Below, one piece after another: positions 1 to 49,947 of a stretch of DNA of 49,947 bases (position 1 is the stretch's first letter; the number at the start of each line of letters is the position of its first letter). The stretch comes from Chitinophagales bacterium (GTDB lineage: Bacteria; Bacteroidota; Bacteroidia; Chitinophagales; Chitinophagaceae). Location of the stretch: NCBI GenBank assembly GCA_020059395.1, contig JAGVCC010000351.1, forward strand, positions 1 through 49,947, given 5' to 3'. Made by a program: the position numbers and the translations under genes. The notes under the pieces were generated by a model. The model was not told the DNA's origin. It searched no databases and saw only the letters and a list, made by a program, of their open reading frames with translations.

Positions 1-99
1 CGTCCAGACGTAACCCGTACCGCCGAACCGACAGCCAGAGCCCGGCTTGTAGTCTGTAAAATATGGGTACCATTTCCGCTGGTCGCTGTCCTCCCAATC
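1..99. repeat. 99-bp exact terminal overlap (copy 1; copy 2 at 49849..49947)
   Basis: cgtccagacgtaacccg...gtcctcccaatc is identical at both ends; consistent with a circular assembly overlap. Confidence 0.95.
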
Positions 100-366
100 A
101 AGCTCAGCACCATCAAGCAATGCTTGGTTAATAATATCAAGCATGTACATTGCGTTTACAGCTCGTTGCCTTGAATTAGTTGGCAAAGTGTAAGGAAGGT
201 CTGTTGGTAAATTCAACTCCTTACAAGCATCCTCATAGGACTTTACTCTTTCAAAAATTGATTGTTTAAAAAAAGAGGCTCCAAATTTTTGTATCAGCTC
301 TGCCCGGTCATTTTCTGAGGCTGATTTGTAAAGGCTTTTCAAGCCATCGGTAATTGATTGTTCCAT
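1..366 (-). CDS. DGR target protein 2, 5' part (continues across the contig junction to 49735)
   Basis: ATG at 366 (MEQSITDGLKSLYKSASENDRAELIQKFGASFFKQ...) stays in frame to base 1 and continues from 49848 to a TAA at 49735, about 159 aa in total; ends in a VR-bearing region. Confidence 0.88.
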   Translation of the reverse strand, partial: MEQSITDGLKSLYKSASENDRAELIQKFGASFFKQSIFERVKSYEDACKELNLPTDLPYTLPTNSRQRAVNAMYMLDIINQALLDGAELDWEDSDQRKWYPYFTDYKPGSGCRFGGTGYVWT

Positions 367-8591: not shown

Positions 8592-9839
8592 ATGATTAAA
8601 AAACTGAAAAGGTCAAAAGAAAAAATTTTTCTCCCCCATGGCTGCTGGTGCAGTAGGCCAAATGTTTCTCCCCAAAATTGGAACGACAAAAAAGACAAAA
8701 CTGTTACCACTGAAAAAGACTGGAGTGTACAGTATCGCTTTTATGATCCTGGTATTTTAGGGCCTGATGGCAAGCCTAGGCCACACCATGAAGTTTTTAA
8801 AAAAATAAATCATGTAAAAAACATAGCCGACCGGCGGGCCTTGTGCCAAGATTTAATAGACAATGAAATTGAAAACCTGCGTCGTGGATATAACCCGGCC
8901 AGGCAAGCATTTACTCCGTTGCCTTCTAACAATATTTCTGATATTGAGCCTTCCACAGTTTTCATTACAGCTTGTGAATTAGCCAGGCTAAAACTAAAAT
9001 GCTCAGAAACTACAAAGAGTGATATTAAAAGCGCTTTAAAATATATTGGTAAGTCAGCATTAAATTTAAGCTACCACCATTTACCTGTGGGTGAAATTAA
9101 ACGAAAGCACATAAGCTTGATTTTGAATAATTGTGTAAACATTAAGCCATACTGGAGCCCGCATTTATTTAACCACTACCGGGCTTATTTACGAATGATA
9201 TTTAACAAGCTGGAAGAACTGGAAGCAATTGAACACAACCCGGTTGATGACAAACTGCCGAAAGAAATTGCAGAAAAAAAACTAAAAAAATTACCCACTG
9301 ATAATGAGGTGGCCACAATACTGCAGCATTTTGAAAGTGATAAATATTTCCTGCAGTTCATTCATATTTTTTTTCACTCTGGCTCAAGAGAAGTGGAGCT
9401 GTTGCGTTTAAAAACAACGGATGTTGACTTAGAAAAGCAAATATTCAGGGTAACAGTAAAAAAGGGTAATAAGATAAGGCAAGATGAAAGGCCAATAAAG
9501 AAAGTAGCGCTGCAGTACTGGCAGCAGGTAATAAATGAAGCCGCACTAGGGCAGTTTTTATTTGGCAGAAAAACTATGGCACCAGCTACAGTACCAGCCA
9601 CCCGTGATTATGTAACAAAGAAATGGCAGCGGGAAGTTAAAATAGCGTTGAATATAAATGTAGACCTGTACAGCCTTAAGCACAAAAACCTTGATGAAAT
9701 TGCAGCTTACCTTTCTATACAGGAAGCGCAAAAAATGGCTGGCCATGGAAGTAAGATTATTACTATGCGGTATGCCATAAATGAAAAACAAAGAGAGAAT
9801 GACAGGCTAAGAGAGGTGCCTAATGTGTTAGGTGGATAA
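8592..9839 (+). CDS. int: tyrosine recombinase / phage integrase
   Basis: SAM-like N-terminal domain; catalytic-region motifs HSGSREVELLRLKTTDVDL, SLKHKNLDEIAAYLSIQEAQKMAGHGSKIITMRYA. Confidence 0.88.
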   Translation: MIKKLKRSKEKIFLPHGCWCSRPNVSPQNWNDKKDKTVTTEKDWSVQYRFYDPGILGPDGKPRPHHEVFKKINHVKNIADRRALCQDLIDNEIENLRRGYNPARQAFTPLPSNNISDIEPSTVFITACELARLKLKCSETTKSDIKSALKYIGKSALNLSYHHLPVGEIKRKHISLILNNCVNIKPYWSPHLFNHYRAYLRMIFNKLEELEAIEHNPVDDKLPKEIAEKKLKKLPTDNEVATILQHFESDKYFLQFIHIFFHSGSREVELLRLKTTDVDLEKQIFRVTVKKGNKIRQDERPIKKVALQYWQQVINEAALGQFLFGRKTMAPATVPATRDYVTKKWQREVKIALNINVDLYSLKHKNLDEIAAYLSIQEAQKMAGHGSKIITMRYAINEKQRENDRLREVPNVLGG

Positions 9840-19246: not shown

Positions 19247-20281
19247 TTAGTAATCAGTTTCAATGTAGTCACTCATAATATCTAAACCGCAAGCTGCCGC
19301 AGTAGTATTATTAAACCTCCAAATTTGTGAATAAGTTAACAGTGTAGTATTTGCAGGCAGGGCTGTACCCGGATTACCCGATAGTGTTCCAATTGCAACA
19401 TGGCCGGTGTTCAATCTAGTTACTTCATAATATACAGTACCATCTACAGATGGCGGAGAAAACAATGCCAATTCGTACGCATCAGTATTTGTTGTGTTGG
19501 CAGGAAAATTTGCACCTAAATCAATAGGTGGTTGAGCAACTGAACCTCCATAAAATATTTTCATAGTTGTATCAGCGGCACCATGGCCCATGCCAATAAT
19601 ATTTGTAAGCGTTGACGGCTCAACATTTGTTGGTGCTGTGGTGGCAGCTGATATTCCATTAAAAGTTCTTGCATTAGAAACTAAAGCGGCATCGCTTATC
19701 CCCCAACGGATAATTTTATGAAATCCTCCTAGTCCGCTACCATTGCCTACTGTTATTTGTGCAACTGCAACTCTTGCAGCAGCGGCACTTCCTGCAGTTG
19801 CAGCACCAACAAAACCAAGCCTCCTCATTCTTGTAAATAAATTTGTAGCTGCAACGTTTCTTAACGTTGCAGTTCCTACTGCCGTAAAAGCCGAAAATCC
19901 AAGTACACCGGGAACTGTTGTGGCATTACCTGGTGGCAACCAAATCCCTACTTTATTCCTTGCGATAAATGGCTGTAAGGCTGAGTCTAATCCGCTAGGG
20001 CCCACAAACTTTGGCATCATTCGGCCAGAGATTGTTTTTGCATAAAGCCGCATCTTTCCAGTTGGTGCAGCCCCAGGTTCAGCAATAGCATTCATTAAAG
20101 AACTTTCAAAAATACCGTTGCTTCCCGTTGCATATTGTAAGGTGTTATAAGCAGCAGCACCATTACCAATTTTATAAAGGCCTGTATTGCTTTCAAAACC
20201 TAATTCGCCATCTGCTAATATTGGATTAACCGATGCCCAGTTTGCTGCGGTATCTCTTCTAAATTGTATTGTTTGTGCCAT
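19247..20281 (-). CDS. tail fibre/receptor-binding-like protein, Mtd-N-like start
   Basis: MAQTIQFRRDTAANWASVNPILADGELGFESNTGLYKIGNG. Confidence 0.65.
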   Translation of the reverse strand: MAQTIQFRRDTAANWASVNPILADGELGFESNTGLYKIGNGAAAYNTLQYATGSNGIFESSLMNAIAEPGAAPTGKMRLYAKTISGRMMPKFVGPSGLDSALQPFIARNKVGIWLPPGNATTVPGVLGFSAFTAVGTATLRNVAATNLFTRMRRLGFVGAATAGSAAAARVAVAQITVGNGSGLGGFHKIIRWGISDAALVSNARTFNGISAATTAPTNVEPSTLTNIIGMGHGAADTTMKIFYGGSVAQPPIDLGANFPANTTNTDAYELALFSPPSVDGTVYYEVTRLNTGHVAIGTLSGNPGTALPANTTLLTYSQIWRFNNTTAAACGLDIMSDYIETDY

Positions 20282-37927: not shown

Positions 37928-38000
37928 AGCGGCAAGGTGGAATCGAACCCCATCTCCCAGCTGGATGGCCGGGCACTATAACCAGTTAAGCTATTGCCGC
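37928..38000 (-). tRNA. tRNA-like gene, Gly-like (TCC in loop), aberrant anticodon loop
   Basis: perfect GCGGCAA/TTGCCGC acceptor, T73, CCCGG/CTGGG stem enclosing 8 nt CCATCCAG, TTCGATT T-loop, mismatched D and T stems. Confidence 0.6.
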
Positions 38001-38606
38001 AGGTATGGCCTTTGGGTATGGCTTATGCAGGCTTTTGCATAAGGGCACCATACTTTTATCAGCCGGAAAAATGTATTTGAATTTATCAGTGCCTTTTATC
38101 TCAATGCAATCACTAACCTTTGGGCACCGCTTAGTATTATTATCCTTAAACCCACTATTACTAACGTTTCTGTTGTGATACTTACGCCCGGTTCTTTTAT
38201 GTATATAACTAGGGGTATCACCCTTTGAAACACCTGTATAATACCAGTTTGTTGCCTGGTATATGGTACCAATATGTTTCTGGCCGGTATCTGCAAAGCT
38301 GATGATTAGCTTTACCAATGGGTTTAATTTTTTAACAAGATTTAAGGAAATGGAAATGGCTTTACTGGTACTCTCCTGCTTACCATTCAATGCCACACGT
38401 ACCAGCTCTATCACCTGCCCCTGCATTAATTTGTAAGGCATGGCTATTTTATTACTGGCTCCTTTACTGTACAAAATTACCCCACACCATTCACCAGTAC
38501 TATTAAAAACAGAAAAGCTACAGCCAAACGGCGGCATTGTTTTACTGTAGTGAAAATTCATTACAGCGTACTTAGTGGCTTTGTATGTGGCAATTTCAAG
38601 TTTCAT
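37986..38606 (-). CDS. mom: Mom-family DNA modification protein
   Basis: HYSKTMP ... GVILYSKGASNKIAMPYKLMQGQVIELVRVALN ... LIISFADTGQKHIGTIYQATNWYYTG. Confidence 0.75.
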   Translation of the reverse strand: MKLEIATYKATKYAVMNFHYSKTMPPFGCSFSVFNSTGEWCGVILYSKGASNKIAMPYKLMQGQVIELVRVALNGKQESTSKAISISLNLVKKLNPLVKLIISFADTGQKHIGTIYQATNWYYTGVSKGDTPSYIHKRTGRKYHNRNVSNSGFKDNNTKRCPKVSDCIEIKGTDKFKYIFPADKSMVPLCKSLHKPYPKAIPAAIA

Positions 38607-47842: not shown

Positions 47843-48145
47843 TTATGTAAACTCAAACCGCCTGTTAATTTTCTGTATCGTTGTAAAAAAAGGCATTTCA
47901 TGTTCGGGCACCTGCTTTATTGTTTCCATCAGTACACCAGAGCCGGTAAACAGTACACGCATTTCATTATTCACTTCTATTTGCAGGTGCAGGCACATGC
48001 CATTTCCCTTCTCTTTGTACTTTGATGTTTCTATTTTGTATGCCAGTACTTTTATCTGTTTGCCTATCACCGATTCCGGAGAAATTTTGTCTCCCGTAAA
48101 ACTTTTTGAGGGTACTGTTATTCCCAGTTGACTGAACTGTTTCAT
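47843..48145 (-). CDS. DGR-linked small protein (possible accessory, function unknown)
   Basis: MKQFSQLGITVPSKSFTGDKISPESVIGKQIKVLAYKIETSKYKEKGNGMCLHLQIEVNNEMRVLFTGSGVLMETI; overlaps the RT 3' end. Confidence 0.65.
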   Translation of the reverse strand: MKQFSQLGITVPSKSFTGDKISPESVIGKQIKVLAYKIETSKYKEKGNGMCLHLQIEVNNEMRVLFTGSGVLMETIKQVPEHEMPFFTTIQKINRRFEFT

Positions 48146-49091
48146 TAATTAGTTTTTTGATAAGGTTTTTACTATTACAATGTTTTGCCCATCCCCAATA
48201 AGCAGCAATCGTTTCAGGTGCAGCATTGCGGCTCACCTTACGGGCAAAATTTTGTTTGATGGATTTACGCAACCTGATGTGTGTATGATAAAACACATAG
48301 CCCACGAAATCAATACCACGGCTGGCCACCGGAAACACCTGGTAGTTATCTTTCAGCTGCAGTCTTAAGTTATCCTGCAAATAATTGGAAATATCAATTC
48401 GGAGCTGGTGCAGCAATTTTTTATCCGGCCCAAGTATCACAAGGTCATCGCAGTAACGGAAGTAATATTTTACACCCTTCACTTCTTTTAACCAATGATC
48501 AAAGTAGCAGAGATAAAAATTTGCAAAATACTGGCTCATAAGATTACCAATCGGCAGGCCATCAGCAGAGTCAATAATTTCATCCAACAGCTGCAGCAGC
48601 TTTTCATCTTTAAACTTTTTTCGCAGCAGTTGTTTTAAAACAACATGGTTAACGCTTGGGTAAAATTTTCTAATGTCCAGCTTTAAGCAGTACCGGGTAC
48701 AGGTTTCATCTGTTAATGCCTTTTTTACATTATTAGCAGCAGCATGTATGCCACGGCCCTTAATGCAACTGTAAGTATCTGCAGTAAAGCAAGCCGTAAA
48801 CACAGGCTCCAGTACATTCATTATTGCATGGTGTGTAATCCTGTCCGGGTAATAAGGCAAAGCATATACAAGCCGTTCCTTTGGCTCATACACTGTAAAT
48901 GTGGAGTAATTTGATGTAGTGTAAGTTTGGCTGCTTAGGCTGTTGTGCAGCGCTTCAATATTGGCATCCCTGTTTTTGTCATGAATGATAACACCTGTTT
49001 GTTTAGATTTTCCCCTGCGTGCAATGGCATCTGCGGCCTGCAGGTTTTGTAAATCTGCTATTTGATTATATGTGTTGTTTATCCTTTTCAA
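47967..49091 (-). CDS. DGR reverse transcriptase
   Basis: RITHHAIMNVLEPVF; YCLKLDIRKFYPSVNH; GLPIGNLMSQYFANFYL; KYYFRYCDDLVIL. Confidence 0.93.
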   Translation of the reverse strand: MKRINNTYNQIADLQNLQAADAIARRGKSKQTGVIIHDKNRDANIEALHNSLSSQTYTTSNYSTFTVYEPKERLVYALPYYPDRITHHAIMNVLEPVFTACFTADTYSCIKGRGIHAAANNVKKALTDETCTRYCLKLDIRKFYPSVNHVVLKQLLRKKFKDEKLLQLLDEIIDSADGLPIGNLMSQYFANFYLCYFDHWLKEVKGVKYYFRYCDDLVILGPDKKLLHQLRIDISNYLQDNLRLQLKDNYQVFPVASRGIDFVGYVFYHTHIRLRKSIKQNFARKVSRNAAPETIAAYWGWAKHCNSKNLIKKLINETVQSTGNNSTLKKFYGRQNFSGIGDRQTDKSTGIQNRNIKVQREGKWHVPAPANRSE

Positions 49092-49209
49092 TTTGGGGGA
49101 GCCTTTGCTTTTACAGGTCTTCTTCGCACATATAGCGCTACCAAAGCCCTTTCAAAAAATTTATTTTTTGCCAAGAGGCAGGGTTTGTGATGCGTAAAAA
49201 CTTTAGCCT

Positions 49210-49279
49210 GGTGAGCCCTGCCGTTCGTATTCGTATTCGTCCAGTCGTAATTCGTATCGTTGAACTGAAAGCCAGAGCC
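49210..49279 (-). repeat. DGR template repeat (TR)
   Basis: 70 nt GGCTCTGGCTTTCAGTTCAACGATACGAATTACGACTGGACGAATACGAATACGAACGGCAGGGCTCACC, 20 A, located between target 1 and RT. Confidence 0.93.
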
Positions 49280-49323
49280 TGAATGCGAAAGAACCACAGA
49301 ACAGCATCACACAACCTTTTCAG

Positions 49324-49731
49324 TTAATCCAACATCAGGTACAATTCCTTATACCAGTCGCTGAAAAATTCATTCATGTGTTCGGCTCGTTCTTCGTCTT
49401 TCAAAGCAAGGCGAGCCCCGCCGCTCGTAGCCGTACCCGCCCAGCCGCAATCCGCACCGCTGAACCGAAAGCCAGAGCCCGTTGAGTCTCCGCCACGGTA
49501 CCAAGGAAACCACTTTTCCTGATCTTTATTATTATAATCAGGTTTCCACTCTGCTTCTTTTGGGTTATCATTATTAACCACAAAGCAGGCGGCTTGTAAT
49601 ACCATCAATGCCAGCATCCCACTGCTTATTTTTTCCGGCAGGTAAGCCAATAGATCCTTTGCTTTTTGCAGATTTAATTTGTCAGGATGCGCTGCAAATA
49701 CCGCATCTACTGTTTTGATGTCTTTGTACAT
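49324..49731 (-). CDS. DGR target protein 1
   Basis: C-terminus WFPWYRGGDSTGSGFRFSGADCGWAGTATSGGARLALKDEERAEHM carries VR1. Confidence 0.9.
   Translation of the reverse strand: MYKDIKTVDAVFAAHPDKLNLQKAKDLLAYLPEKISSGMLALMVLQAACFVVNNDNPKEAEWKPDYNNKDQEKWFPWYRGGDSTGSGFRFSGADCGWAGTATSGGARLALKDEERAEHMNEFFSDWYKELYLMLD
49410..49479 (-). repeat. DGR variable repeat 1 (VR1)
   Basis: 70-nt gapless alignment to TR; 15 differences, all at TR adenines. Confidence 0.93.
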
Positions 49732-49734
49732 TTT

Positions 49735-49947
49735 TTATTTTTTTGGGTTATTGAAATCGTTCCAAATAGCAAGGAACTGAGTGCCGAAATATTTTGCCTT
49801 CTCCTGCGTATCAAGGCAAAGGCGAGCCCCGCCGCACGTATTCGCATACGTCCAGACGTAACCCGTACCGCCGAACCGACAGCCAGAGCCCGGCTTGTAG
49901 TCTGTAAAATATGGGTACCATTTCCGCTGGTCGCTGTCCTCCCAATC
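49735..49947 (-). CDS. DGR target protein 2, 3' part (continues from 1..366; last 99 nt duplicate 1..99)
   Basis: KWYPYFTDYKPGSGCRFGGTGYVWTYANTCGGARLCLDTQEKAKYFGTQFLAIWNDFNNPKK*. Confidence 0.9.
   Translation of the reverse strand, partial: DWEDSDQRKWYPYFTDYKPGSGCRFGGTGYVWTYANTCGGARLCLDTQEKAKYFGTQFLAIWNDFNNPKK
49821..49890 (-). repeat. DGR variable repeat 2 (VR2); part duplicated at 1..42
   Basis: 70-nt gapless alignment to TR; 13 differences at adenines plus one T to G. Confidence 0.93.

Follow-up and report, generated by a model that had tools for sequence, protein, structure and literature searches.

Organization of the DGR cassette

The window, that is, the whole stretch of DNA analysed here with its length of 49,947 bp, is contig 141 in a draft genome of 498 contigs. 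It harbors a diversity-generating retroelement (DGR) cassette that runs across the contig ends. On the minus strand, the cassette consists of the VR2 gene (159 aa), the VR1 gene (135 aa), the template repeat (TR), the reverse transcriptase (RT) gene, and an ORF of 100 aa, in this order. The RT (47967-49091, minus strand; 374 aa, TTG start) matches RVT_1 (E = 6e-14) and phrog_1423 (E = 2e-123). Its translation carries the motifs LPIGNLMSQ and YCDD and shares 58-67% identity with RTs from DGRs of Bacteroidota. TR is intergenic (49208-49281, minus strand). VR1 (49408-49481, minus strand) lies in the first target gene (49324-49731, minus strand), which matches phrog_11581 (E = 2e-9) and starts 4 bp past the stop codon of the VR2 gene. 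VR2, in register with TR, occupies 49819-49892 on the minus strand and is made up of positions 49819-49848 and 1-44.

The differences between TR and the two VRs are those of a DGR. In VR1, 17 of the 22 TR adenines are changed, with a single mismatch at a non-A position; VR2 shows 15 of 22 changed adenines and two non-A mismatches. Mismatches are thus concentrated at TR adenines in both repeats (Fisher test of A versus non-A positions, P = 2e-11 for VR1 and 1e-8 for VR2). Each target has 17 mutable codons, and a stop codon cannot be reached from any of them. At the 3' end, TR reads CAG...CACC, while both VRs read CGG...CGCC, that is, G replaces A at two places. The first of these differences is found in every printed TR/VR pair of the relatives described below, the second in nearly all. 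Judged by position and conservation, such fixed differences would agree with IMH/IMH*, a pair whose divergence determines in BPP-1 which way sequence is transferred (PMC3240598 on the role of IMH). According to established DGR biology, the RT would misincorporate at adenines while copying the TR RNA, and the mutated cDNA would then replace the VR of either target gene. We found no third VR on either strand of the circle described below, and a pattern search allowing up to three mismatches revealed no further VR elsewhere in the assembly.

No Avd-type match was obtained among the proteins of the cassette. The 100-aa ORF (47843-48145, minus strand) overlaps the 3' end of the RT gene and is conserved directly after the RT in the relatives. 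It matches no Pfam or NCBIfam family above its cut-off and could possibly represent an undescribed DGR accessory protein. A homologue of this ORF is also located beside the RT of the archaeal virus vir525.

The second target gene is split over the contig ends

An earlier note on this DNA had claimed that a second DGR target gene starts with the ATG at position 366, reaches base 1 in phase and, resuming at 49848, ends with a TAA at 49735, giving about 159 aa. This is exactly what we found. The 5' part (1-366, minus strand) provides 122 whole codons, and the 3' part (49735-49848, minus strand) contributes codons 123-159 and the TAA (49735-49737), so that codon 122 is the last before the join and codon 123 the first after it. 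Read over the circle, the joined gene (366 to 1, then 49848 to 49735, minus strand) comprises 480 nt and encodes exactly 159 aa; the frame passes through the junction without a shift or an internal stop. The joined protein matches phrog_11581 with E = 1e-21 and can be aligned to a relative over 144 aa across the join (42% identity, E = 1e-28). Eleven TR-adenine sites flank the join on each side, and their codon phase equals that in VR1. The joined gene is therefore intact, and the changed TR adenines in VR2, the stop-proof codons, and the fixed 3' marks bear out the claim that it is the second DGR target.

Other details of that note needed adjustment. The contig is indeed cut inside VR2, with the limits of the repeat (given as 49821-49890 and 1-42) off by a trivial two bases. 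The statement that the gene is missing from the ORF track did not hold where open ends are allowed, since a fragment of 122 aa is then listed at 1-366. What a linear annotation loses are the last 37 codons and the status as a DGR target: the gene is truncated rather than absent.

The terminal repeat is an assembler k-mer

The first and last 99 bases of the contig are identical (1-99, duplicated at 49849-49947; an unstranded feature). This repeat is exact and maximal, and no longer overlap was found. A genuine terminal redundancy of a linear phage genome was considered, as direct terminal repeats do occur in some phages. We compared 100 other contigs of the same assembly: four contig pairs share ends, and each of these overlaps is again exactly 99 bp long. 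Hence, the terminal repeat corresponds to the assembler k-mer, and the two ends are neighbours in the assembly graph. Moreover, the repeat sits within a coding gene without any gene boundary, and joining the ends restores a conserved protein of 159 aa. Taken together, these observations make terminal redundancy extremely improbable. The contig break is an assembly artefact, and the gene across the ends is real. Removal of one copy of the overlap results in a circle of 49,848 bp. An integrase encoded at 8592-9839 suggests that this circle is a temperate phage.

The position of the cut points to VR2 variants in the sampled population

That VRs can break contig assemblies has already been stated (PMC8008677), and the earlier note had suggested that population-level diversity of VR2 caused the cut. 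The base directly 3' of the overlap k-mer, position 49848 (minus strand), is a mutable TR-adenine site, with A in TR and T in VR2 on the gene strand. By chance, a TR-adenine site would lie next to the k-mer with a probability of about 0.09% on that side and 0.18% on either of the two sides; these values apply to one event, which was picked because it looked odd. Most likely, the sampled phages carried VR2 copies that were alike in their 5' half and differed from base 49848 onward, so that the k = 99 graph branched at this base and the contig was closed at that node.

Repeats do break assembly graphs, and the mutual similarity of TR, VR1, and VR2 might in principle have caused the cut without any variants in the population. 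But TR shares at most about a dozen consecutive identical bases with either VR, far below k = 99. For this reason, the TR/VR repeats cannot branch a k = 99 graph, and an origin of the cut in these repeats is very improbable. A search of the whole assembly also revealed no other copy of the VR2 region with identity over 99 bp.

Assemblers also open isolated cycles at arbitrary places, in which case the position within VR2 would be a coincidence. Besides the adjacency of the TR-adenine site, a comparison with 11 circular crAss-like genomes with related RTs bears on this possibility. Two independent records among them, cr115_1 and cr50_1, have a 55-bp overlap, are cut inside a VR, and show a changed TR-adenine right after the overlap k-mer, compared to about 0.01 such genomes expected. 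A rough uniform model, in which every genome is given two VRs of 30 adenines each, yields P ~8e-5 for two or more such cuts among 11 genomes. In the other nine genomes, the end overlap measures 49-55 bp (eight genomes) or 141 bp (one genome). Their ends lie more than 2 kb upstream of the RT and thus away from the RT-proximal VR region, as judged by RT position, which is what arbitrary opening would produce. Overall, we regard an arbitrary cut of our contig as unlikely.

Instead, the position of the cut, as read from the assembled sequence, points to VR2 sequence variants in the sampled population. The k-mer length, the TR-adenine at 49848, and the two crAss-like cases support the explanation of the earlier note, in which the causal step from diversity to graph branch is one that we infer. 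In all three cuts (our contig, cr115_1, and cr50_1), the shared k-mer is on the 5' side. Such an arrangement agrees with retrohoming, in which the 3' end is constant and exchange at the 5' end relies on homology (PMC3240598), although three cases prove nothing.

Tandem targets are the rule in related cassettes

We searched bacterial genomes with the RT and obtained 26 loci, all from Bacteroidota wherever the host is named. In 21 of them, TR and RT are preceded by short targets of the same family (about 122-169 aa), arranged in tandem as pairs or triplets. In two further loci, the contig ends before the targets are reached, and the remaining three have a single, different target. The 100-aa ORF directly follows the RT in 22 of the 23 tandem-type loci, and the phrog_11581 match, which covers the N-terminal region of the targets, is found in 28 of 31 relatives. 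Because 21 of the 26 loci carry tandem short targets, the two-target layout is standard in this lineage, and the VR2 gene, split here, is the upstream, longer target of its tandem pair. More generally, several VRs per DGR are known from 28.6% of the non-redundant DGRs (PMC6642488).

Among these relatives, an isolate contig of Flavobacterium psychroterrae (L031:1-40) starts within VR1. The contig of locus L016 starts about 40 bp before TR, but L014 and other loci have their contig ends elsewhere. For the bacterial relatives as a whole, an excess of contig ends in VR or TR was not established.

Genomic neighbourhood and possible role of the targets

The cassette is flanked by ParB-like genes on one side and by genes for an N6 methylase, an exonuclease, and an Erf-type annealing protein on the other, while tail-type genes are found at about 11-20 kb. 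A Mom-like DNA modification protein is encoded at 37986-38606 (minus strand; phrog_1384, E = 2e-41). The tail region also encodes a protein with an Mtd_N domain (19247-20281, minus strand; PF18454, E = 1.5e-12), which is not a target of the phage's TR. In the relatives, the neighbours are often primase, DnaB, MuB-like, and replication initiation genes. Such an early-region placement is not universal: head or terminase genes are located near the cassette in three relatives (L006, L010, and L015).

For the VR, a C-type lectin fold as in C-type lectin DGR targets did not emerge from structure prediction. AlphaFold models of relatives and of the VR1 protein had a confidence below 50 over most of the VR. 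Fold searches with the predicted structures yielded no significant match, and searches of solved structures with both family profiles returned nothing credible.

The targets are encoded in the half of the genome devoted to replication and recombination, apart from the tail genes. Hence, their most likely role is that of non-virion recognition proteins produced within the infected or lysogenic cell, a view that we hold with moderate confidence. Alternatively, both could belong to the virion as tail or receptor-binding proteins, which is the situation in most DGRs of phages. Tail proteins account for many phage DGR targets (PMC8144416), and a homologue in Bacteroides phage Versailles is labelled 'tail protein', a label based on PHROGS/HHpred. 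On the other hand, our targets are about 10 kb or more away from recognised tail genes, amid replication and recombination genes, and early genes are the neighbours in several relatives. In addition, the proteins of the tail region, including the Mtd_N protein, are not targets of the TR. We therefore consider a virion role less probable, but still a serious alternative.

Our main reading, with a probability of roughly 0.85, is that the contig is a complete circular genome of a temperate phage that was opened in VR2 at a variant branch, and that its DGR targets are most likely non-virion recognition proteins. More tentatively, and with the odds somewhat against it, Bacteroidota prophages could share a DGR cassette that diversifies tandem, short, early-encoded proteins for intracellular hypervariable recognition, with the 100-aa ORF as a possible accessory. 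Such recognition, if true, could face host defences or competing phages, for example.

Comparison with known DGRs

The kind of DGR described here is already known; less usual is the tandem and probably non-structural target pair. BPP-1 of Bordetella has one tail target (mtd) with its VR at the C-terminus, and avd is present. Our cassette resembles it in having an RT, a TR, A-specific changes in the VRs, and 3' marks, but has two targets, in which about 27 residues follow the VR, and no recognised avd. The Quimbyvirus DGR (PMC8008677) likewise belongs to a temperate Bacteroidota phage and has two VRs, and one of its targets is located away from structural genes, adjoining defence and nucleic-acid genes. 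Its other target, however, is near the tail genes, whereas here both are adjacent, short, and outside the tail module. Moreover, the Quimbyvirus RT is encoded in overlapping frames, in contrast to the single ORF of our RT. The DGRs of nd4 and nd12 with their tentaclins (PMC10743442) also have two target genes on one phage DGR. There, one target is large (569-579 aa) and combines an N-terminal VR domain with Ig domains, while both of ours are short.

In the isolated Bacteroides phage Versailles (ON453897), an early-region homologue of our targets is matched by the phage's own TR. Versailles differs in that its second VR belongs to a tail protein encoded beside the RT; on the record, the early target and TR are separated by more than 40 kb. 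This single TR matches both the VR in the tail gene and the VR in the early gene (L045:3977-4558, L046:2181-3542), and hence a VR cassette can serve a tail protein as well as the short target family. The label 'tail protein' of the early gene is probably wrong.

Implications for surveys and annotation

A DGR target can go unnoticed at the ends of a complete circular phage contig, and surveys in which genes close to contig edges are discarded may miss precisely the most variable ones. In one such survey, targets within 50 bp of a contig edge were excluded from first-round clustering (PMC8144416). Conversely, the position of a cut relative to the TR adenines can serve as a read-free hint of DGR activity in the sampled population. 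With targets that are in tandem and probably not part of the tail, the cassette suggests that phages employ DGRs for more than receptor switching.

The crAss-like reference records NC_055898.1 and NC_055868.1 (ends L150-L153) are opened inside a VR and have retained a 55-bp assembler overlap. In both records, DGR target genes appear to be split over the ends, where no gene is annotated.
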